A stretch of 27,949 bases of DNA from a virus: positions 1 through 27,949 of IMG/VR virus record IMGVR_UViG_3300005843_000029; one strand, written 5' to 3'. The position numbers were made by a program, and so were the translations under genes. The notes under the pieces were generated by a model that was not told the origin of the DNA, did not search any database, and saw nothing but the letters and a program-made list of their open reading frames with translations. Positions 1,039 to 13,079 of this stretch are shown piece by piece. Each line of letters starts with the position of its first letter. Position 1 is the stretch's first letter.

Positions 1039-1521
1039 CTACTTGATACGGAGCCTTTTCACAAGCGCAAGCGTAATCTTTGAGACTTGTGAAACTGGCT
1101 CAAGGTCACAGGTTCTCGCAATCACACCGTCGTATGGGGGCCGCTTCTCATACACCAGTGGCACAGAGTCTGGAGTGTGATCACACCAGTTAGCCACCCG
1201 AAAGATGCGCCCATCCGGTTTGAACCGGACGAGCCTGCCCACTGGGAACCTAGAGTGGATGAAGTTGTACCGCGGCGGCGGCCCTGGCTTCTGCGTGAGT
1301 ACGTCTCGCACGATGGCCACGCTGCACTTCATCTCCCCTGCTATGCGCTCGGCGCTCCAACCAATTTCGCTCAGCCTGCGTACGTGCTGAACCCCGTCGC
1401 TAAAGGGGATGAAGTTGTGCCGCGGTGGGGGGAGGGAGCTCTTCGTCGCCGAAGACGGGGTGGCCATCTGTGTCTGAAGCAGGCGCCCGACTTTCAAACG
1501 CTGCCTGAGCGATAGGCGCAT
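1039..1521 (-). CDS. HTH-containing hypothetical protein, 160 aa
   Basis: The middle of this protein, about residues 43-76 (VQHVRRLSEIGWSAERIAGE and onward), is a helix-turn-helix similar to that of the neighbouring 55 aa protein. A ten-residue segment occurs twice, PPPRHNFIPF and PPPRYNFIHS, and the DNA shows the same repeat at about 1258 and 1409. The ATG at 1521 has a good AAGGAAGAG six bases upstream but lies inside the DUF3310 gene; ATG 1467 (142 aa, weak RBS) is an alternative start. The C-terminal half (VGRLVRFKPDGRIFRVANW) looks like a small beta-rich domain. Function unknown, possibly a regulator. Confidence 0.65.
   Translation of the reverse strand: MRLSLRQRLKVGRLLQTQMATPSSATKSSLPPPRHNFIPFSDGVQHVRRLSEIGWSAERIAGEMKCSVAIVRDVLTQKPGPPPRYNFIHSRFPVGRLVRFKPDGRIFRVANWCDHTPDSVPLVYEKRPPYDGVIARTCDLEPVSQVSKITLALVKRLRIK
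1043..1070 (-). promoter_or_regulatory. predicted promoter of the 1002 gene
   Basis: TTGCGC (1070-1065), a 16-base spacer and TATCAA (1048-1043) on the minus strand match the repeated phage promoter. The predicted transcript starts about ten bases before the GGGCACAGCCC hairpin. The promoter overlaps the 3' end of the 1039-1521 gene. Confidence 0.65.
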
Positions 1522-1963
1522 AGGTCTCTTCCTTCTTGGCCAGTGCTGCCTTCTCTTTCGCGATCAATGTTAAAACCACTTCGTGAGCAACCCCGATTGT
1601 GTCTTTGATCTCAGGTTCGCTGCCGCCAGTGGACCACAGCATGTACGCCACGAACAACGCTTTGCAGGCAATCAACTCATCCATGCCTACATATCCGGGT
1701 ACGCTCAAGTTATCATGGCGCATGCGCTCGATGGTATGTGGTCGGGCCGGTTTACGCAGTACCTCCATCAGCTTTTCGATGTAGTGGAGCGACTTCTCGA
1801 GATCCTGAATGCCATTCTTGTCACGCCAGCGGAAGAGATACTTGGTGGCACAGCCAACCAAGTAGGACGGCCCGAAGGCATCGCTGATGAGGTCCCAGTG
1901 CTGGACAGCACCGTCGGCTTTCTTGTAGTGGCTGCCTGCCACCTGACGGTCATTTGCGGACAT
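1400..1963 (-). CDS. DUF3310 family protein
   Basis: Residues about 15-75 carry the DUF3310 signature: QHWDLI, YLVGCATKYLFRW, KNGIQDLEKSLHYIEKL. This family is widespread in phages and is often labelled a nucleotide kinase-like protein, though that activity is not well established. The ATG at 1963 (MSANDRQVAGSHYKKA) is chosen because it overlaps the end of the HD gene by 14 bases and begins just before the conserved domain; the open frame reaches further upstream only through the HD gene. The C-terminal 80 residues are variable and overlap the HTH gene. Position beside TS-fold and HD genes agrees with a role in nucleotide metabolism. Confidence 0.9.
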   Translation of the reverse strand: MSANDRQVAGSHYKKADGAVQHWDLISDAFGPSYLVGCATKYLFRWRDKNGIQDLEKSLHYIEKLMEVLRKPARPHTIERMRHDNLSVPGYVGMDELIACKALFVAYMLWSTGGSEPEIKDTIGVAHEVVLTLIAKEKAALAKKEETYAPIAQAAFESRAPASDTDGHPVFGDEELPPPTAAQLHPL

Positions 1964-2543
1964 GGTTGTATTCCTTGATGATGTGTTGGAGCATGCGGTG
2001 GGCGTTCTGATACATCGCGGCCCATTCGTCAGGCCGAACGAACTGAGCGTCTTCTGTGGACACACCGTTGGCGTACGGGGTGGCCGAGCTGATCGGGAGG
2101 AGCCTGCGCGTGTACACGAGTGCTCGGTCGAAGACATCGTCCATGGTGGTGTTGCCGAGCCGTCGCTCTTCGATGCAGAACCACAGGAGCTCCATGATGT
2201 CTGCGGCCCGCAGCATGAGTGTCTCGTACTCGTTCAGGTCGTGAACGATGCCGAGCTCAAGCTCAATGTCCTGCTCCATGGCGTTGAGCGCGTCAGTCAG
2301 TGGCTTGCTCCGCCACTTGGCGTTCGCGGGGGTATCACCCGTGTCGTACTCTGGGACGTCATGGTCCAGCCCTGCCATCAGCAGGTTCACCGTCAGCTTG
2401 TCCGACGCCACGATCTCGCGGAGCAGCATAGCCACGCCCCAGCTATGAGCGGCGACGGTCTGCTGACTGTGGACCGGCTGCGTGTGCCAGCGACGGACCG
2501 CACCACCCTTGCGGATACGGTCGTGTGCCGCCACGAAGCTCAC
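1950..2543 (-). CDS. HD-domain phosphohydrolase, YfbR-like 5'-nucleotidase
   Basis: The HD metal site is plain: RRWH (17-20), AHS (32-34), LDHDVPEYDTGD (59-70), and a later acidic helix (RAADIMELL). The RWH, AHS and HDxxEYxTGD spacing matches YfbR-type 5'-deoxynucleotidases, which remove phosphate from dNMPs; phage relatives of the HD superfamily also destroy selected dNTPs. GTG at 2541-2543 is chosen since it overlaps the TS stop as GTGA and has GGAG six bases upstream; the GTG at 2564 would lie before that RBS. Next to the TS-fold gene it may clear a canonical nucleotide so that a modified one is used. Substrate is not readable from sequence. Confidence 0.85.
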   Translation of the reverse strand: MSFVAAHDRIRKGGAVRRWHTQPVHSQQTVAAHSWGVAMLLREIVASDKLTVNLLMAGLDHDVPEYDTGDTPANAKWRSKPLTDALNAMEQDIELELGIVHDLNEYETLMLRAADIMELLWFCIEERRLGNTTMDDVFDRALVYTRRLLPISSATPYANGVSTEDAQFVRPDEWAAMYQNAHRMLQHIIKEYNHVRK

Positions 2544-3559
2544 TTGAGTCTCCGGAGCAGCCACCGCTTGCAGGCCATGGCCCAGTCAGTGGCGTGGCAC
2601 TTGTCAGCGTACTCGATGGCCCGCTGGACATCATTACGTTTCCAGGCGCACCACGCGAGCAGCAGTGGGAACGCCGCATGGTCGAAATACGGAATCCCAG
2701 TCTCGCCGTAGTCGATGGACTGCCCATCTGCTGCTCTGAGGACCTGACGCATGATGGAGTCAAGCGCTCCATCGAAAGCGATCATGCGGTAGTCCGAGAT
2801 ACCATCATCGGGCAGACCGGTGAACATGCTGAACGGCGTGGCGACGTTGAGACTGTAGAGATCGAACGGCATCTTGTAGCCCGGGGGAGCGTTCTTCTCG
2901 AATACTGCGGTGTACGCATGGAAGTCGCACGAGATCTGGTAGTACTTGCCGACAGGCACGCCAACACACCCGGCGATGTATTCCTGCAGAGTGCTGAACT
3001 GGACTACGTTCGCACCGTAGGCGCCCCAGATCATGTCATTGCTGCGGCAGAACACCATCAGGTCCAGCTTGCCATCCACGATGCGGAGCTTGATCATGTC
3101 GTTGCACGGGATGTCTTTCTTCGACGCGCCGAGGTCTTTGTTCTGATCCCAGATCTGGAGCATGACCTGCCGGTTCAGCGGGTTCTGCTGGAGCAGGCCG
3201 ACAGCGAGTTTGATCTGATCATTGATACCAGTTTCACGCAAGCGGTAGCCATACGGTGCATGGAACGTGACCCCGTCGTCGCTGTAGTCTGCCATCCGCT
3301 TGTTGAAGAATGCCAGAGTGGCAACATCGCACTGGCCATTGAGGATCCAGAGCGCTTCGAAGAAGTGGAAGAACGGGTTGGCATCCCGGTTCTCGTCCCA
3401 CAGCACGCGCTCGCACGGGTTGTCGTACACCGTGGTCACGGGGAACGGGACAACATAGGCGTCGCCAGCCCGGGTCGTGGTCAGCAACCCATGGTCACGG
3501 ATGAGCTGAGCTCCGGTCTCGTACGCGTAGTTGACGTTGCGCTTGTGGATGACGTGCAT
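2540..3559 (-). CDS. thymidylate synthase-fold enzyme (TS or pyrimidine hydroxymethylase)
   Basis: The protein has the ThyA-family core: catalytic Cys152 in DIPCND, the phosphate/nucleotide motif CRSND (Arg172, Asp175), Asn184 in GAYGANVVQFS, and His214/Tyr216 in CDFHAY. In bacterial ThyA the catalytic motif is PCH; here it is PCN, as in many divergent phage members. The family includes thymidylate synthases and dUMP or dCMP hydroxymethylases; the retained Asn184 argues for a uracil substrate, not cytosine. At 339 aa it is longer than E. coli ThyA (264). ATG 3559 follows GAAGAAAG; a TTG at 3577 overlapping the previous stop is a possible alternative. The next gene toward the promoter is a thymine hypermodification protein, which favours 5-hydroxymethyl-dUMP synthesis. 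Confidence 0.88.
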   Translation of the reverse strand: MHVIHKRNVNYAYETGAQLIRDHGLLTTTRAGDAYVVPFPVTTVYDNPCERVLWDENRDANPFFHFFEALWILNGQCDVATLAFFNKRMADYSDDGVTFHAPYGYRLRETGINDQIKLAVGLLQQNPLNRQVMLQIWDQNKDLGASKKDIPCNDMIKLRIVDGKLDLMVFCRSNDMIWGAYGANVVQFSTLQEYIAGCVGVPVGKYYQISCDFHAYTAVFEKNAPPGYKMPFDLYSLNVATPFSMFTGLPDDGISDYRMIAFDGALDSIMRQVLRAADGQSIDYGETGIPYFDHAAFPLLLAWCAWKRNDVQRAIEYADKCHATDWAMACKRWLLRRLK

Positions 3560-3573
3560 TGTGCGGGCTTTCT

Positions 3574-4458
3574 TCAAAGGGCTGCGGGGGTGTACCGCGC
3601 CCGGGGTTGACCTTCGTTGAGTCTGACGCGTTCGTACTTGTCAAACTCGCAAAGGCAGTTGGTGAGGTTGTTCATATCGCGGAATACTGTTCCGTAATAC
3701 TCGATGTCATCTTTATACTCCGCGATGCCATCGAGCACAAGGTCGCGCAAGCGAAGGAGGTGTTCTTGAACGTCGCCCTTCTTGTGGCGAGTATGGATGG
3801 GCTGTTCCATCACACGGTTCAAGCCACGCAGAGTGCCGGGACCAGCAAGGACAAAGGTCCCCCAGTCTTTAGCTTTCCGCAACTGGGACGAATACTTGAA
3901 GTCTGTCGCCACTTGGTTAGCCATGAAGTCGCTGAAACCGTTGTGCTCTTTGAGCATGGTAGCGAAAGACTCCACGCTGTCAAACCGCCATCGGCCCGCG
4001 CCTTGTCTCGCATGTTTCCAAAGCGGCTCCAGGACCTTGGTGGCGAAGTATTCAGCCTTGTCCATGCTGTGCCCATTGGTGGACACAATATAAGCACCAG
4101 TCCACACCTTCAGGCCAGCATCCCGGCGCTCGTGCAGCACGCGAATGAACTTCTTCGGATTGAAGACTTCGATGTACCCCAAGGCTTTCAGGGTGCCGTG
4201 CCAGTTGACCACACGGGCGACGCACAGATTGAACCACAGGTAAGGGCACTTATCGTGCGGCCGAAGAATGTTCTTGTGGACCCACTTCGTTTCCGTGTCG
4301 TCGTTGCGGTTGATATTGCAGAAACGCCACTCTTTGAGAATGGGGTCGTCCGTCCAGTCGCGCCGCGGTATGCCACCAGCTTTGAACAGACGGATGCTAT
4401 CGCGCTCTTTGATGAAGTACAGAAAGCGATTGAGCGGCAGACTGGTGGAGCGGGTCAT
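3574..4458 (-). CDS. stand-alone 5-hmdU DNA kinase helical-domain protein (thymine hypermodification)
   Basis: The N-terminal half matches the family named '5-hmdU DNA kinase helical domain' or alpha-glutamyl/putrescinyl thymine pyrophosphorylase: FLYFIKERDSIR (12-23), DWTDDPILKEWRFCNINR (34-51), DDTETKW, and later WTGAYIVSTNG. In phages that hypermodify thymine this helical, glycosylase-like domain accompanies enzymes that phosphorylate and then substitute 5-hydroxymethyluracil in DNA. No P-loop (GxxxxGKS/T) is visible anywhere in the 294 residues, so the kinase part of fused homologues is absent. ATG 4456-4458 overlaps the upstream stop as ATGA. It sits between the TS-fold gene and a glycosyltransferase gene. 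The family call is firm; the exact reaction is not. Confidence 0.85.
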   Translation of the reverse strand: MTRSTSLPLNRFLYFIKERDSIRLFKAGGIPRRDWTDDPILKEWRFCNINRNDDTETKWVHKNILRPHDKCPYLWFNLCVARVVNWHGTLKALGYIEVFNPKKFIRVLHERRDAGLKVWTGAYIVSTNGHSMDKAEYFATKVLEPLWKHARQGAGRWRFDSVESFATMLKEHNGFSDFMANQVATDFKYSSQLRKAKDWGTFVLAGPGTLRGLNRVMEQPIHTRHKKGDVQEHLLRLRDLVLDGIAEYKDDIEYYGTVFRDMNNLTNCLCEFDKYERVRLNEGQPRARYTPAAL

Positions 4459-4652
4459 TGTTTCTTCCCTGTGATGGTCACGCTGAACCTAGCACCAGCG
4501 ACAAACTCTCGCCACGGCGCTACCCCAGTCGGTATAATCTCATTGTAGACGTGGACCTTCATCTCGGTCCCTTCTATTGCGCCAATTGGCTTGCCGTCAA
4601 TAATGATGACTCCGTCCCCGGTTTTATCATCAATCTTGATGTTGATGTTCAT
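4455..4652 (-). CDS. small hypothetical protein, 65 aa, beta-rich
   Basis: A short gene joined by ATGA overlaps on both sides to the glycosyltransferase and the hmdU helical-domain genes. The sequence MNINIKIDDKTGDGVIIIDG is followed by KPIGAIEGTEMKVHVYN and ends FSVTITGKKQ. Alternating hydrophobic residues and DG turns suggest a small beta-sheet protein. I recognise no family. Its position inside a coupled modification operon makes an accessory role plausible, but nothing in the residues shows one. Confidence 0.75.
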   Translation of the reverse strand: MNINIKIDDKTGDGVIIIDGKPIGAIEGTEMKVHVYNEIIPTGVAPWREFVAGARFSVTITGKKQ

Positions 4653-5443
4653 AGCAGTGAACTTTCGTATGCCTTCTTCCAGCTTGCCACGATGTCGAGG
4701 CGCTCGTACCCCCAAGTCCCCTTCTTGCCCTTGGGCACGACGCGGACAAACTCGGGGAACATACGCATCAGGTCCCGTGCCGCTTGGGCTTGGACCTCTG
4801 GCGTGCGGACAGTGCTGCACCCCCCGGCGGTATTGCTCCCCGGCTGAGAGTGGGCGTAGTCGGTCAGTACGACATTCTGATGGCCATTCGTGAGGAGCCT
4901 CAGCGTTACCGCGAAGTCCTCCATAAGCTTGGGCTTGCTGAAGTCAGCATCGATTGCCCGCAAGGCATCGGTACGGAACCCCATTGCGCGCATGACGCGG
5001 GTGTTCTTGACAAGGTTCTCAGGCAGTCGGTTCCACCCCTCACGGGGGGCGATGCCTACTTGGGCGATCTCGTTGATGAGGAGCTCATACTTGGCTTTGA
5101 GGAACATGGTGTCCATGTTCTTCGGGGTGGCCAAGTACAGGCTGAAAGGGGATGCAGATTCTGCTTTGCGCTTGGGGCCGCGGACGAAGAAGGTCAGGTC
5201 ATCGTCCAGCATCATGAACTGTTTGATGCCGATCTTCTCGCAGTGCTTCCAGATGAAGTTGCGCTTGTGACCAATGCCGGGCCACTTCTGGTCGCTGACC
5301 AGCACATTGCGGCCGAGGTCCTTATGCGCCTTTGCCTCGGACGGGTACACCACCAGATACGTCTCAGGGAGCCACCTCGTAGGTATCATGCTCAACGTGA
5401 TCTGTGATTGGACCCGTCCGAGGGTCGGGATGAAGATTCTCAT
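4649..5443 (-). CDS. TET-associated-type glycosyltransferase (TAGT), GT-A fold
   Basis: The protein opens MRIFIPTLGRVQSQIT and has GIGHKRNFIW near residue 57 and QFMMLDDDLTFFVRG near 75, with the metal-binding DDD at 80-82. These are the hallmarks of the TAGT family, GT-A glycosyltransferases found in phages beside TET/JBP oxygenases or other base-modifying enzymes and linked to sugar transfer onto hydroxymethylated bases in DNA. A conserved acidic segment (LMEDFAVTLRLL) follows near 195, like the catalytic acidic region of GT-A enzymes. No TET gene is in the window; the neighbours point to hydroxymethyluracil instead. ATG at 5443 follows AAGGGCACAC. Acceptor and sugar are unknown. Confidence 0.82.
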   Translation of the reverse strand: MRIFIPTLGRVQSQITLSMIPTRWLPETYLVVYPSEAKAHKDLGRNVLVSDQKWPGIGHKRNFIWKHCEKIGIKQFMMLDDDLTFFVRGPKRKAESASPFSLYLATPKNMDTMFLKAKYELLINEIAQVGIAPREGWNRLPENLVKNTRVMRAMGFRTDALRAIDADFSKPKLMEDFAVTLRLLTNGHQNVVLTDYAHSQPGSNTAGGCSTVRTPEVQAQAARDLMRMFPEFVRVVPKGKKGTWGYERLDIVASWKKAYESSLL

Positions 5444-5476
5444 GTGTGCCCTTGTGCGGTGAAGCGAAGGTGCCGA

Positions 5477-5842
5477 TCAGGCGGTGGCGAGAACGCCAGC
5501 AGCGAGAGCGCCGCGGATGTAGCCACGGATGAAGGTGTCGGGGTTGCTCTTGGCCGAGGTGCCGCGGGGTTGCTTCAGTGTCTTGCGCAGACGGCCCATG
5601 CCGGTCTCGAGGGTGGCACCAGCACCGCCGAACGCGGCGCGGACGATGGCGAACATGCTGCCTTCACGCGGCTCGGTCTTGCCACCCTTCAGCTTGGCGT
5701 CGTCAGCGAGCTTGGGCTTGCGGCCGGTCTTCGCGGTGGCCTTGTTCTTGCCCTTGGGCGCCGGCAGGGCTGCCTTGACCTTCTTGGCGGTCTTCTTGGT
5801 GGGGGTGCCGATCAGGTCGTCGACGTCGTTCTTCTTACCCAT
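5477..5842 (-). CDS. small basic Lys/Ala-rich protein, 121 aa
   Basis: The first 60 residues are a low-complexity basic stretch (KKTAKKVKAALPAPKGKNKA and similar), like histone H1-type or nucleoid-associated tails. The second half (FAIVRAAFGGAGATLETGMG, then TFIRGYIRGALAAGVLATA) looks like a small folded helical domain that is common at the ends of phage basic proteins. It probably binds DNA or nucleic acid, by composition only. It is the first gene after the strong promoter at 5886-5913 and has the hairpin leader and AAGGAG, so it should be well expressed and heads the operon carrying the base-modification genes. Confidence 0.75.
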   Translation of the reverse strand: MGKKNDVDDLIGTPTKKTAKKVKAALPAPKGKNKATAKTGRKPKLADDAKLKGGKTEPREGSMFAIVRAAFGGAGATLETGMGRLRKTLKQPRGTSAKSNPDTFIRGYIRGALAAGVLATA

Positions 5843-5849
5843 GATGGGT

Positions 5850-5873
5850 CTCCTTGTAGTGAGCGCTTGGCTC
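5850..5873 (-). promoter_or_regulatory. leader hairpin plus RBS of the 5842 gene
   Basis: The minus strand reads GAGC-CAAGC-GCTC (5873-5861) and, five bases later, AAGGAG (5855-5850). The stem bases differ from the GGGC/GCCC versions elsewhere while the pairing and the CAAGC loop are kept, which is compensatory change supporting a real RNA hairpin. Confidence 0.7.
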
Positions 5874-5885
5874 GGTTGTACTGAT

Positions 5886-5913
5886 GTGATAACCCCGGGG
5901 TTTCAGGCTGCAA
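5886..5913 (-). promoter_or_regulatory. predicted promoter of the base-modification operon
   Basis: On the minus strand TTGCAG (5913-5908), exactly 16 bases, and TATCAC (5891-5886). Both hexamers and the spacer equal those of the rightward promoter at 18176-18203. It overlaps the 3' end of the SNF2 helicase gene and should drive the genes from 5842 leftward. Confidence 0.7.
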
Positions 5914-7282
5914 GGACTTTCTTTTTATACGAGGCGAGAGCCTCCATCATCCCTGCCTGAGTTCTGCCCTTACGACGTTGAGCCGCCAGCACCACGAGGT
6001 CCACTGTGTGCCGGCAGACAAGGTAGTGGATCGTCACGAGATTAGGCTGGCCCTGGCGTTGCAGTCTGGCGATGGTCTGGTCGTGCCGCTCACCGCTCCA
6101 TGTGGTCGTATACCAGAGCAGATGGTGCCCACCATACTGCAGATTGATGCCGTGGCCCACTGACTGCGGCTGCACGAACATCACGGGCACCTTGCCGGCG
6201 TTCCATGCCTTGAAGGCGGCGCTCGTCTCCTTGGGCTTGGACCCACCGCCGATGATGGGTGCATTGGGCCACAGCTTGCGGAACCGTTCAGCCTCATGGC
6301 GGAACTCATATGCCACGAGCAGCGACTGGCCATTCATCTGTTCGATAACTTCCTTCAGCGCATTGATCTTGACATCGTGCAGCCGCTTCCAGGACGCTTT
6401 GTTGTATATAGCACCACTGGTGAACTGCCGGCATTTGTTACTGAGCACCGCGGCGTTCACAGCTTCTATCTCAGCTTCCTCTTCTTCCATCTCGATGAAC
6501 ATCTCGCGCTCGAACTTCTTGTACTTGTCCAAGAGGCGATCGCCGAGGTCCAGCTTGATAATGTTGACAACTGGCTCTTTCATGTCAAGGTGATCTTTGG
6601 CGCGCAGGCTCAACGTGATGTCACGGACCTTGCTGTAGATCAACTCGTCATGCCCCTTCAGGAGCTGAAGGTTGTACCCCATGCGGTCGAGCTGGCGGTA
6701 GTGCTCAGCCTTGAAGTGTGTGACATACTTGCCGAGCCGAGTGCCCTGGTCGAGGAGGTAGTACTGTGCCCATAGATTTACGAGGCTCTCAGACGCTGGG
6801 GTGCCAGTCAGGATCATCCGCCGCCGCATGAAGGGCATGAACGGCTTCACGCGCTTGAACCGCTTGGATGATGATGACTTCATCATGGATGATTCGTCAA
6901 ACACCATGCCATCAAACGGTGGTTGATTCTCAAGCATCCAATCACAAAGCCACAGGAGGTTGCTGTAGCTCACTAGGTAAACATCGAAACCTCCTCGCCG
7001 CAAGATTCCGTCGCGCTTCGCAGCCGGCCCTCGGACCTTGACGACTTTAAGATGTTTAGTATGGTCCCATTTTTGAGCTTCAGCTTCCCAGACTTCATCA
7101 ACGACTTTGGGCGGTGCGATGACGCAGATACCGGGTGTAAGACATTTATCCACTTCTTCTGCGACGATAGTAAGGACACAAACTGTCTTACCCAAGCCCA
7201 TGTCCAGGAGGAGAGCGCAAACCTCTTTGTCGCAACCGAAACGGACTGCGTGTGATTGATATTTGCGAGGAATCCAACGCAC
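5903..7282 (-). CDS. SNF2-type superfamily 2 DNA helicase/translocase
   Basis: The 459 aa protein has the SF2 motif series: PRKYQSHAV (Q-like, 5-13), LLLDMGLGKT (Walker A, 24-33), VFDESSMMK (motif II, DES at 129-131), ILTGTPAS (motif III, 157-164), and a C-terminal RecA-like domain with SVGHGINLQY and TIARLQRQGQ (motifs V and VI). It resembles phage SNF2-family ATPases that lie beside VRR-NUC nucleases and polymerases, and probably moves along duplex DNA in replication or recombination. Start GTG 7282 has AAGGGG seven bases upstream, and an in-frame TGA just before that RBS excludes earlier starts. Codon use between about 6990 and 7270 is more AT-rich than in the rest of the gene. Confidence 0.92.
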   Translation of the reverse strand: MRWIPRKYQSHAVRFGCDKEVCALLLDMGLGKTVCVLTIVAEEVDKCLTPGICVIAPPKVVDEVWEAEAQKWDHTKHLKVVKVRGPAAKRDGILRRGGFDVYLVSYSNLLWLCDWMLENQPPFDGMVFDESSMMKSSSSKRFKRVKPFMPFMRRRMILTGTPASESLVNLWAQYYLLDQGTRLGKYVTHFKAEHYRQLDRMGYNLQLLKGHDELIYSKVRDITLSLRAKDHLDMKEPVVNIIKLDLGDRLLDKYKKFEREMFIEMEEEEAEIEAVNAAVLSNKCRQFTSGAIYNKASWKRLHDVKINALKEVIEQMNGQSLLVAYEFRHEAERFRKLWPNAPIIGGGSKPKETSAAFKAWNAGKVPVMFVQPQSVGHGINLQYGGHHLLWYTTTWSGERHDQTIARLQRQGQPNLVTIHYLVCRHTVDLVVLAAQRRKGRTQAGMMEALASYKKKVLAA

Positions 7283-7914: not shown

Positions 7915-9873
7915 TCAATCCTTCCTGTAGTATTGTGTTTCAAAGCCCTTGGCGCCGAGTGGCAACCCGGGTGCCCATGGCGCACAGGACGTCAGGCACG
8001 ACACGACTTCCTCGACCTTGCGGACCTTCGGCACAGACGTGATCACTTCGTCATGGACGTGGAACACGATAGGCAGCTTCTGGGCTTCCATCTTGTGCAT
8101 GCCGAACACCAGCACGTCACGGGCGATGGCCTGCACCGCGTTCTCTGTGAGCCGACCACCATACGTGGTCTTCGTTACCCACAGCCGGTTCTTGATGAGA
8201 GTCTTGTACGCGACGACCGTCTTGAGCTCGCCCCAGGATGTCTTCTGCTGAACCAGCTTGGCTTCAGGGTACCACAACCGCCGCCCACTGGGCAGAATCA
8301 TGGTGAGGTACCCCTTGACCATCTCGAACGCGACTACTCCGGCTCTCGTAACAGTGCCTGCCGATGCCACCGCACTGATAGCAGCGGTTTCAATGAGGGA
8401 CCAGTACTTAACGATCCGTCGATAAGTTTTCCGATACGCTTTGACAGCTCGCTCAAGTAGACTTCTCTTGATATCTGGTTTTGACTTGACGCACTGTCTG
8501 TAAAAAGTATCGACTCCCATTGAGTAGCCGAGCGCGAGGACCGCCTGCTTTCCAACCCAACGTTGGTCATCGTCGACATCATCATATCCAATTCCAAAGA
8601 TCTCTGCAGCAGTGACTTTATAAAGATCCAGTCCCTCTCGGAAGGCTTTGAGGTATTTCGGATCTTGAGCCAGCCAGCCCAGGACACGCGCCTCAATACT
8701 AGCGAGGTCACATACGATGAGCTTCTCGGCTTGAATCGCTCGAACAATATGTCGTACTGCGTCTCGAAGAACCCCCATGGGTTCTCCATATAACGCTTCG
8801 ATTGCTTCGTAGTCTCCGCGACGAATGAGATCATTGTCGAAGTCATCCAGCTTACGGGATGGCCGAGCAAGATTCTGCGTCTGTAGGAGCTTCGCAGTCC
8901 ATCTGCCAGTGTGCGCTCCATGGTAGCGGTGAATGGACCGTACTCGTCCGTCACGACAAACTGCGTACATTGCCGCATGGTACTTCTTCACCGCCGCTTG
9001 AGCGGTTCTTTGACGAATGCGAAGGACCTTCTTCAGCAATGGCGGAAGGTCTTTATCCTTCAGACATACTGTGATGGTCTCCTTCTTGGTGTCGTGCAGG
9101 GATTCGTACCCAAGCTCTTTGGACAGGGCCACGATGCGGGCTGTCTGCCCCGGCGTGGTGACCTTGATCTTGCATCGCTTGGTAAGCTCTGTGAGCTGAT
9201 GCCGCGCCTCTATCTGAGCACGCTGCTCAATCTTGATGGCGCCCCGCAGCAGGCTCATATCCATTGGGATGCCGCGGCGGTTGATATTGCTGTCCATCGT
9301 CCACACGCGCTGCTCTTCAACGCCGAGGGAGTGGATTGGCATAGCAAGATCAGCAGCCTCTTCGGTGCGCACGTCTTGCATGCAGTACCGAACAAGGTTC
9401 GTGAAGTCCGCGGGGTCATCCTCAGGTTCTGTGAACTCGCCTTTGCGGTTCGGCTTGCAGAACTTGTTGATGAGCCGTTTGCCTTCCTTGTCCTTCTCTT
9501 GCTCCAGCCCGAGCACAGTAGCCAACTGCTCCAGGGACGGTGGCAGGCTGCACATCAGGGCGACCGCTTGCGTGTCTACCCACTGCGATGCCTTCGGTAT
9601 TGGCATGCCGAGCTTGGCCATGCAGCACTCAGTGATGGCCCGTTCGAAGTTGGCGTTGAACGCCTTGACAGGCACCCCCCTGTTAATGGCGTCGATCAGT
9701 TCCTGGGGGATGGGCTGGCCTATGCGCCAGGGCTTGACACTGCTGAACCCGGGGAGCTTGTAACCGAAACACAGGACCCGTGTGGACGGGTCCTGTGCGT
9801 AGCGCCACACGCCTACCTTCTTGAGATCCACAAGACTCCGGGTCTCGTAGTCAATGCGGATGCAATCCTTCAT
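7915..9873 (-). CDS. family A DNA polymerase with 3'-5' exonuclease domain
   Basis: This 652 aa protein is the phage replicative polymerase. The exonuclease domain shows IDYETRS (7-13), NANFERAI (73-80) and YCMQDVRTE (163-171). The polymerase domain shows HTGRWTAKLLQTQNLARP (321-338), motif A CDLASIEARVLGWLA (388-402), motif B RWVGKQAVLALGYSMG (438-453) and motif C HVHDEV (605-610). No 5'-3' nuclease domain is present, as in many phage Pol I-like enzymes. It starts at ATG 9873, one base after the SSB stop. Codon use changes sharply from about 8380 to 8900, where AGA, CGA, TCA and ATT codons are common, while the encoded motifs stay intact; a mosaic origin is possible. Confidence 0.97.
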   Translation of the reverse strand: MKDCIRIDYETRSLVDLKKVGVWRYAQDPSTRVLCFGYKLPGFSSVKPWRIGQPIPQELIDAINRGVPVKAFNANFERAITECCMAKLGMPIPKASQWVDTQAVALMCSLPPSLEQLATVLGLEQEKDKEGKRLINKFCKPNRKGEFTEPEDDPADFTNLVRYCMQDVRTEEAADLAMPIHSLGVEEQRVWTMDSNINRRGIPMDMSLLRGAIKIEQRAQIEARHQLTELTKRCKIKVTTPGQTARIVALSKELGYESLHDTKKETITVCLKDKDLPPLLKKVLRIRQRTAQAAVKKYHAAMYAVCRDGRVRSIHRYHGAHTGRWTAKLLQTQNLARPSRKLDDFDNDLIRRGDYEAIEALYGEPMGVLRDAVRHIVRAIQAEKLIVCDLASIEARVLGWLAQDPKYLKAFREGLDLYKVTAAEIFGIGYDDVDDDQRWVGKQAVLALGYSMGVDTFYRQCVKSKPDIKRSLLERAVKAYRKTYRRIVKYWSLIETAAISAVASAGTVTRAGVVAFEMVKGYLTMILPSGRRLWYPEAKLVQQKTSWGELKTVVAYKTLIKNRLWVTKTTYGGRLTENAVQAIARDVLVFGMHKMEAQKLPIVFHVHDEVITSVPKVRKVEEVVSCLTSCAPWAPGLPLGAKGFETQYYRKD

Positions 9874-12162: not shown

Positions 12163-12579
12163 TTACTTGACAGCCTTGAACAGCTTGATCGCCAGGGCGT
12201 GCTTGGCCTCGGGGATCTCGCTGACCTTCTTGATCTTGAACTTCTTGAGCACGGCGACGGCCGCGTCACGGTCCTTCTTGATGGCGTTCTTGGCAGCGGC
12301 AGCCACCTGCTCGGTGAGGTCGTCGGCGTCATCGCCTTCACCCTCGTCAGCGTCGCCTTCGTCGTCCGCCGAGTCGTCGCCTTCGTCGTCCGCCGAGTCG
12401 TCGCCTTCGTCGTCCGCCGAGTCGTCCTCGGCCGGCTTCTTGGCCTTGCCCTTGGTGGGCGTCTTGCCCTTCTTGACCTTGGTCTCCACCTCTTCGTCAC
12501 CGGCGAGCGCAGCCGTCAGAGCGGCGGTGTTGGCCTCGAGGGCTTCCGTGAGAGCAGTGAGTGCAGCTTCGATACCCAT
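12163..12579 (-). CDS. acidic repeat protein with helical C-terminus, 138 aa
   Basis: Start ATG 12579 follows GAAGGAATCCCAATC. The N-terminus is an Ala/Leu helix (EAALTALTEALEANTAALTA), then a basic linker (KKGKTPTKGKAKKP), three copies of DDSADDEG, and a C-terminal helical domain (NAIKKDRDAAVAVLKKF, EAKHALAIKLFKAVK). The arrangement of a coiled helix, a flexible acidic middle and a small C-terminal DNA- or protein-binding domain recurs in phage replication operons beside SSB and recombinase genes, but I cannot name the family. The three repeats are identical at the DNA level, so length variation by slippage is expected. Confidence 0.8.
   Translation of the reverse strand: MGIEAALTALTEALEANTAALTAALAGDEEVETKVKKGKTPTKGKAKKPAEDDSADDEGDDSADDEGDDSADDEGDADEGEGDDADDLTEQVAAAAKNAIKKDRDAAVAVLKKFKIKKVSEIPEAKHALAIKLFKAVK
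12352..12423. repeat. three perfect 24-base tandem repeats
   Basis: The unit GTCGCCTTCGTCGTCCGC plus CGAGTC occurs at 12352-12375, 12376-12399 and 12400-12423 without a mismatch. It encodes the acidic DDSADDEG repeats of the overlapping leftward gene. Confidence 0.95.
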
Positions 12580-12594
12580 GATTGGGATTCCTTC

Positions 12595-12605
12595 GGCCTG
12601 TGGCC
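12595..12605 (-). promoter_or_regulatory. short leader hairpin before the 12579 gene
   Basis: GGCC-ACA-GGCC on the minus strand runs straight into GAAGGAA, the RBS. It is a weaker relative of the recurrent hairpin-RBS cassette; no matching promoter lies at the usual distance. Confidence 0.45.
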
Positions 12606-13079
12606 TGTTGGTGTTGTGCAATGCCTAACCCCGCGAGCCACCATAGAGCGCGGGGTTAAGTCATGCCGACTGTGTCGGCCCTTGAACGTGCGGTCTAGCC
12701 TGCTCGCCGGCATTTAGCCGGACTTGGGCTCTAGGTGCTTTGGAGTTGTGTTCTCCTCCACTCACGGGGATCTCCCGCTTTACCCTTATTCAGTGAACCA
12801 CATTACACCGGAGCAGACCACAGCAACGCCATGGCCAACGAGTACGGCTTATCTGTGTAGAACGCTGAACATCTCTTCAACCGCCGAAAGAGCTTGCTGT
12901 GACCGTCACCGCATTTGCTTGGGATGTTATCCCCAAGGAACCCACGGCTTCGGTTTCGGGGACAGACCCCTCATCAGACAGCATCTTATTGCGCCTGCCC
13001 ACGTCTAGGGCACACCCCATTCCCTCTCCAGCCCGGGACCCGGGAGCCTGATGCAACGTGCGACACCAGAGGGAGAGAC
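12606..13079. other. gene-free stretch rich in stem-loops, possible structured RNA
   Basis: No convincing reading frame fills these 474 bases between two leftward genes. Several strong inverted repeats occur: TAACCCCGCG/CGCGGGGTTA (12626-12658, perfect ten-base arms), GCCGAC/GTCGGC (12665-12679), CCGGC/GCCGG near 12707-12720, CTTGGG/CCCAAG at 12918-12937, and TCCCTCT/AGAGGGA enclosing a CCCGGGACCCGGG core near 13021-13073. No T-loop consensus for a tRNA was found. Transcription would be leftward with the flanking genes. A structured noncoding RNA is possible; this rests only on pairing seen by eye. Confidence 0.4.
12626..12658. repeat. perfect 10-base inverted repeat (GC-rich hairpin)
   Basis: Arms at 12626-12635 and 12649-12658 with a 13-base loop. 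There is no T-tract on either side, so it is not a classic Rho-independent terminator. It could close the 3' side of a leftward structured RNA. Confidence 0.75.

Follow-up and report, generated by a model that had tools for sequence, protein, structure and literature searches.

A 27,949-base fragment of the IMG/VR virus record IMGVR_UViG_3300005843_000029 (the window, by which we mean the whole stretch of DNA analyzed) carries at 1400-5443 on its minus strand a single operon of overlapping genes. It brings together a TAGT-family glycosyltransferase (GT), a stand-alone version of the helical domain known from 5-hydroxymethyldeoxyuridine (5-hmdU) DNA kinases (HMUDK_hel, hereafter hel) and a thymidylate synthase (TS)-fold enzyme. 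Its six genes are:

4649-5443, minus strand: TAGT-family (GT-A type) DNA glycosyltransferase with an LDDDL motif (PF20691, E=6.3e-22; phrog_842)
4455-4652, minus strand: 65-aa protein, ATGA-coupled on both sides (no Pfam or PHROGs match)
3574-4458, minus strand: stand-alone hel protein, also termed aGPT-Pplase1 (PF18723, E=5.6e-36; phrog_2396)
2540-3577 (TTG start, or ATG at 3559), minus strand: TS-fold enzyme, predicted dUMP hydroxymethylase (PF00303; phrog_5131; PCN and Asn)
1950-2564, minus strand: predicted YfbR-like HD (deoxy)nucleotide hydrolase (PF12917, 2e-13)
about 1400-1963, minus strand: DUF3310 protein (PF11753, 8.5e-7)

The first five of these had been proposed as a DNA base hypermodification operon in a first-pass annotation made without database searches, and they stand with their positions and overlapping junctions. 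The TAGT gene overlaps that of the 65-aa protein, and the latter that of hel, by ATGA, hel and TS are joined by TTGA unless the TS gene starts at the ATG at 3559, and a GTGA is a possible start at the TS/HD junction. The HD and DUF3310 genes share 14 bases, and the operon therefore counts DUF3310 as a sixth gene.

Profile searches recovered the families that had been named for these products, with neither the hel protein nor the TAGT falling into an unrelated one. The TAGT scores 79 bits against PF20691 (curated cut-off 27.5) and 2.6e-49 against phrog_842, the beta-glucosyl-HMC-alpha-glucosyltransferase family; its acidic metal motif (D80-D81-D82 of LDDDL) is invariant in four aligned TAGTs, including those of the window and of the phages ctUhy936 and LuckyBarnes (see below). 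Hel matches PF18723 over its whole length (124.8 bits, cut-off 25; model positions 5-278 of 281, residues 10-282) and phrog_2396 with 9e-51. The TS-fold enzyme (PF00303, Thymidylat_synt, 1.6e-15; phrog_5131, TS, 2e-96) is 41% identical to gp58 of Pseudomonas phage M6 and possesses both the PCN catalytic cysteine and an Asn at the position of N177 of E. coli TS, the latter serving as the ruler for numbering. This Asn marks the dUMP type, T4 dCMP hydroxymethylase having an Asp in its place, and it is found in 145 of 146 alignable TS sequences from loci of both the kinase and the GT class, the exception being that of Microbacterium phage Quartz. Beyond its PF12917 match, the YfbR-like HD enzyme is 48% identical to the HD protein of ctUhy936 and weakly matches DatZ (6zpa). 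The 65-aa protein, for which no family had been suggested either, found no match in Pfam or PHROGs and no convincing homologue among the related loci compared.

That the hel protein lacks a P-loop, as had been noted, is plain from the sequence; the conclusion drawn from it, namely that the kinase step is missing, does not follow. In phage M6 the hel protein gp55 is likewise devoid of a P-loop, and the kinase is the adjoining gp54 (PF18748, 7.7e-18). Because the M6 kinase is a separate neighboring gene, a hel without a P-loop represents the normal split arrangement, and we dropped it as an oddity in itself. What sets the window apart is that the kinase gene is lacking. Profile searches detected neither the PF18748 kinase nor the PF18724 amino acid:DNA transferase (ADDT) in the window, nor PF18748 in an overlapping contig (L103/G001; 28.8 kb, 99.99% identical) that adds 5.9 kb of structural-type genes.

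The operon otherwise resembles the M6/YuA-type pathway (M6 gp51-gp61) in its dUMP-type TS, its stand-alone hel (34-37% identical to that of M6), its HD enzyme and an adjoining family A DNA polymerase. Only M6 possesses the P-loop kinase gp54, the ADDT gp51 (PF18724), and pyridoxal phosphate- and radical S-adenosylmethionine (SAM)-type genes, whereas only the window has a TAGT. Pam3 and Rhizobium phage RHph_I72 likewise encode all three of hel, the PF18748 kinase and the PF18724 transferase. M6 DNA bears 5-hmdU-derived bases (PMC6449724); for the chemistry of M6 we rely on papers citing the original work and on Pfam names.

We classified a hel-seeded set of 80 IMG/VR loci (referred to below by L numbers) and the window with hidden Markov models built in this analysis, the GT class comprising TAGT, TAGT-like, GT1-like GT-B and "QND" family proteins. 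Twenty loci had only a kinase, 52 only a GT, two had both and seven neither (Fisher p=3e-11); put differently, a GT was present in 52 of the 59 kinase-less hel loci as against 2 of the 22 kinase loci. When all seeds were pooled and TAGT was set against kinase over 136 hel clusters, two had both, 34 only the kinase, 61 only the TAGT and 39 neither (p=2e-9). On whole records, PF18748 was detected in 23 of 26 kinase-class controls and in none of the 50 GT+hel records, the window and the overlapping contig included. Conversely, a TAGT-seeded survey found hel in 62 of 79 loci, and in 60 of the 62 with a TS, and no kinase in any of the 79. The TAGT and hel genes lie on the same strand in all 98 loci with both and at most 1 kb apart in 89 of them; no fusions of hel to a TAGT or another GT were seen in the related loci surveyed. 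The earlier proposal of a kinase step that is missing or supplied elsewhere thus holds by virtue of the absence of PF18748 from the window, its 5.9-kb extension and 49 other GT+hel records, and not by the P-loop argument. Together with the profile matches, these counts bear out a hypermodification operon with a GT in place of the kinase: the GT stands where M6-type phages have the 5-hmdU kinase, making this a variant of thymidine hypermodification. A strict mutual exclusion of kinase and GT was considered and dropped, as L201 and L225 hold both and QND occurs in 15 of 36 kinase clusters.

Two of the GT classes call for comment. The GT1-like GT-B family has a PF00534 match in L036 that lies below the curated cut-off, and a second GT-B group matches it at 97% probability. 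The QND family found beside hel (L025:104-1054, L040:389-1342, L184, L052 and about 70 further loci in our alignment) has no Pfam match, but its AlphaFold2 (AF2) model, with a predicted local distance difference test score (pLDDT) of 94.1, is most like T4 phage DNA beta-glucosyltransferase (Foldseek E 1.5e-9). We assigned it to the GT class on this structural likeness, profile comparison with GT-B families having given no match; going by this model, QND probably represents a DNA glucosyltransferase family not described before.

A tree of 102 hel representatives labeled by partner (kinase or GT) requires at least 14 changes of partner, and some well-supported neighbors on it have unlike partners: L048 (kinase) and L080 (TAGT), L061 (kinase) and L096 (TAGT), and L044 (kinase) and L036 (GT-B). 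Among independent pairs differing in the kinase, the GT was opposite in all seven that differ (p=0.016 with QND counted as GT; p ~0.06 for TAGT alone). The notion of hel as one TAGT-specific clade was dropped in light of these changes. Hel appears, by this tree, to have been swapped repeatedly between kinases and glycosyltransferases, an exchange of which we found no earlier account in the accessible literature, which does not cover the central Lee and Iyer papers.

The conserved residues of hel are mostly the same with either kind of partner. R51, D54, Y123, D198, the GxG at 206-208, C270-E271 and K274 are invariant in all 74 aligned sequences, the window included, and 27 positions conserved at 90% or more have the same residue in the kinase and GT classes, with only three positions being class-specific. 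The same conserved residues in both classes suggest that hel acts alike whichever enzyme adjoins it, and it appears to do the same job beside either. The AF2 model of the window protein is confident (pLDDT 93.9) and all-helical; in VIA-align its top neighbor is the 5-phosphomethyl-dU glycinyltransferase (PUGT; Z 10.9 over 221 residues), followed by the queuine salvage enzyme/DUF2419 and many helix-hairpin-helix DNA glycosylases (Z 6-10). Among viral models the best matches are other hel proteins, the 637-aa "5-hmdU DNA kinase" of SP10 and amino acid:DNA transferases. The SP10 protein, which contains the hel fold, is likely a hel-kinase fusion. By sequence, the window hel matches nothing in the PDB, and as a single-protein query it retrieved no relative from IMG/VR, an alignment query being needed. 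The DNA-glycosylase-like fold suggested by these models is a base-flipping one, which would fit a role in presenting the base.

Of the annotated genomes, that of the myovirus ctUhy936 (MW202897; complete, 40 kb) is nearest to the window phage; it shares the TAGT-TS-HD-DUF3310-like gene order and the same neighboring replication genes. Brevibacterium phage LuckyBarnes has consecutive TS, TAGT, TAGT and hel genes (gp38-gp41, annotated as glucosyltransferases and a hypothetical protein), and its complete genome lacks both PF18748 and PF18724. It differs from the window in its two TAGTs, in a C-terminal extension of the TS and in that no HD gene was found beside these genes. We know of no measurement of DNA modification in LuckyBarnes. 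Hel and TAGT also co-occur in phage Quartz (L016), whose TS (5208-6023) has no Asn and instead an adjacent Asp (RADYSMW); as judged from these residues, this TS may use dCMP, and the modified base may then differ. A different phage group, the HTVC023P-type pelagiphages, has the same gene set in one region: TS, aG/PT-PPlase1 (hel), 5'-deoxynucleotidase and a beta-glucosyl-HMC-alpha-glucosyltransferase of the TAGT family (PMC9599517). In the accessible part of that paper, the set is said to be one that "potentially broadens the functionality", and neither the absence of the kinase nor a partner switch is raised. The suggestion that the combination differs from the described kinase-based routes is right as regards the replacement of the kinase by a glycosyltransferase, whereas the gene set itself had already been noted.

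Taken together, we consider it probable that the operon yields glycosylated 5-hydroxymethyluracil (5-hmU) DNA and that the enzyme to which hel presents the base is here a glycosyltransferase rather than a kinase. The TS-fold enzyme would make 5-hydroxymethyl-dUMP, as its family, its Asn and its orthology to the M6 enzyme suggest, and the HD enzyme would probably clear away a competitor nucleotide, for example dTMP. Incorporation of 5-hmdU would fall to the phage's family A polymerase (7915-9873), and after replication the TAGT, an enzyme of GT-A fold (PMC13216743), would place a sugar on the hydroxymethyl group by way of no phosphorylated intermediate, kinase and ADDT being absent. Since a glycosyltransferase takes the kinase's place, the sugar is most likely added directly to 5-hmU, a transfer that is chemically reasonable because T4 beta-glucosyltransferase can glucosylate 5-hmU (PMC4111573). 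Hel would find or present 5-hmdU to the TAGT just as it would to the P-loop kinase of M6-type phages; we infer this step from adjacency, partner exchange, the fold and the kinase fusion in SP10.

Several points weigh against this reading. No hel was found in the complete ctUhy936 genome, and L123 and L161 have TAGT and TS with no hel in the available DNA; a TAGT therefore need not require hel. Gene neighborhood is no proof of a physical complex of the two, and the roughly 200 related loci surveyed in total across seeds were seeded on relatives, with many contigs incomplete. A Foldseek search of the hel model against the PDB gave nothing significant (best E 0.4), and a Z of about 10, as for its VIA-align neighbors, can reflect a common helical arrangement. 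Coverage of the virus is fragmentary (27.9 kb, or about 33.8 kb with the extension, against 40.4 kb in a related complete genome), and a kinase may lie in the remainder. Finally, L201 and L225 unite kinase, TAGT, QND, TS, HD and hel, possibly for two modification layers or mixed bases.

The alternative that survives best, albeit an unlikely one, holds that the TAGT alone glycosylates 5-hmdU and that hel, with no TAGT partner, is a separate enzyme, either of the ADDT superfamily or a glycosylase-like quality-control factor, acting on other or unmodified 5-hmdU. The predicted fold that hel has in common with the 5-PmdU glycinyltransferase and DNA glycosylases would suit such an enzyme, as would its many invariant polar residues (e.g., R51, D54, D198, E271 and K274) and the hel-less TAGT of ctUhy936. 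It is difficult to square with how very closely hel is associated with either a kinase or a glycosyltransferase and how often that association has formed anew, with conserved residues that are the same beside both kinds of partner, and with the likely kinase fusion in SP10. An M6-like route, in which the unsequenced remainder of the genome encodes a 5-hmdU kinase and the TAGT acts on a later intermediate or another base, strikes us as improbable. The window is a fragment and L201 and L225 do combine kinase and TAGT with hel; however, in M6-type loci the kinase adjoins hel, and there is none here, in the 5.9-kb extension, in complete LuckyBarnes or in any of the 50 GT+hel records, in a search that recovered 23 of 26 controls, nor is there an ADDT in the window. 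More doubtful still is a T-even-like system, with a TS-fold enzyme that hydroxymethylates dCMP and a TAGT that glycosylates 5-hydroxymethylcytosine: the T2/T6 TAGT does act on already glucosylated hydroxymethylcytosine (PMC13216743), the closest solved TS structures, as a further point against our preferred reading, are CMP hydroxymethylases, and Quartz combines TAGT and hel with a TS lacking the Asn, but the window and nearly all its alignable relatives have this Asn rather than the Asp expected of a dCMP hydroxymethylase, and the TS is orthologous and syntenic to gp58 of M6, a phage with 5-hmdU-derived bases (PMC6449724). The T2/T6 TAGT (beta-glucosyl-HMC-alpha-glucosyltransferase) is, like that of the window, a PF20691 protein, whereas, unlike it, it works beside an alpha-glucosyltransferase and a dCMP hydroxymethylase on glucosylated hydroxymethylcytosine; T-even-type relatives are about 25% identical to the window TAGT.

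The surroundings of these genes offered further observations. Replication and nucleotide genes fill the left half of the window as a block on the minus strand, in the order DUF2800/PDDEXK nuclease-like, ssDNA-binding protein, family A DNA polymerase, SNF2 helicase and the modification operon, and the right half holds primase/helicase, terminase, portal, Mu F-like and prohead protease genes. A small protein (5477-5842) precedes the TAGT and has a counterpart in the same place in ctUhy936 (record positions 2762-3247), both sharing a stretch around QPRG; 12163-12621 codes for a protein with acidic direct repeats (DDSADDEG repeated). Behind the HD or TS gene, ctUhy936 and many related hel loci have open reading frames (ORFs) that resemble DUF3310 by eye, and in RHph_I72 DUF3310 is annotated shortly after TS; it probably belongs to the nucleotide step. 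Sulfotransferase-like proteins occur beside or near hel or the GT at L023:10834-11607 (a weak PF13469 match) and L033:7986-8705, making a sulfated sugar or base possible in such loci. Radical SAM ORFs (L042:9045-9971, with SPASM, and about 26 others) often lie near GT, hel and TS in kinase-less loci, and at L034:9081-9977 an inosine-uridine nucleoside hydrolase family protein directly precedes hel, and neither a kinase nor a GT lies close by. ORFs resembling NAD-dependent sugar epimerases adjoin hel or the GT (L036:12330-13331, L086:12824-14011); their GxxGxxG start, recognized by eye, hints that they would supply a special sugar nucleotide.

In a wider generalization, for which we put the chances at about even, hel would be a general 5-hydroxymethyluracil-presenting subunit for P-loop kinases, GT-A (TAGT), GT1-like GT-B and T4-beta-glucosyltransferase-like GT-B enzymes and perhaps sulfotransferases, and the window would be one case of a large phage class with directly glycosylated hydroxymethyluracil (base-J-like) DNA. 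With the gene set already reported from pelagiphages (PMC9599517), what appears to be new, by the papers accessible to us, is the switch of hel between kinase and GT partners. If true, this exchange would explain why hel is named after a kinase, its role being independent of phosphorylation, and would account for the solitary TAGT homologues whose role is not known in 288 of 753 phage genomes (PMC13216743). It would further imply that base-J-like DNA occurs in a large group of phages and would provide pairs of enzymes with which hydroxymethyluracil in DNA could be glycosylated. It also has a bearing on the question which phages evade restriction enzymes and by which modification-dependent defenses they can be recognized. 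The arrangement suggests that the armor of these phages' DNA is sugared thymine rather than thymine built up with phosphate and amino acids.

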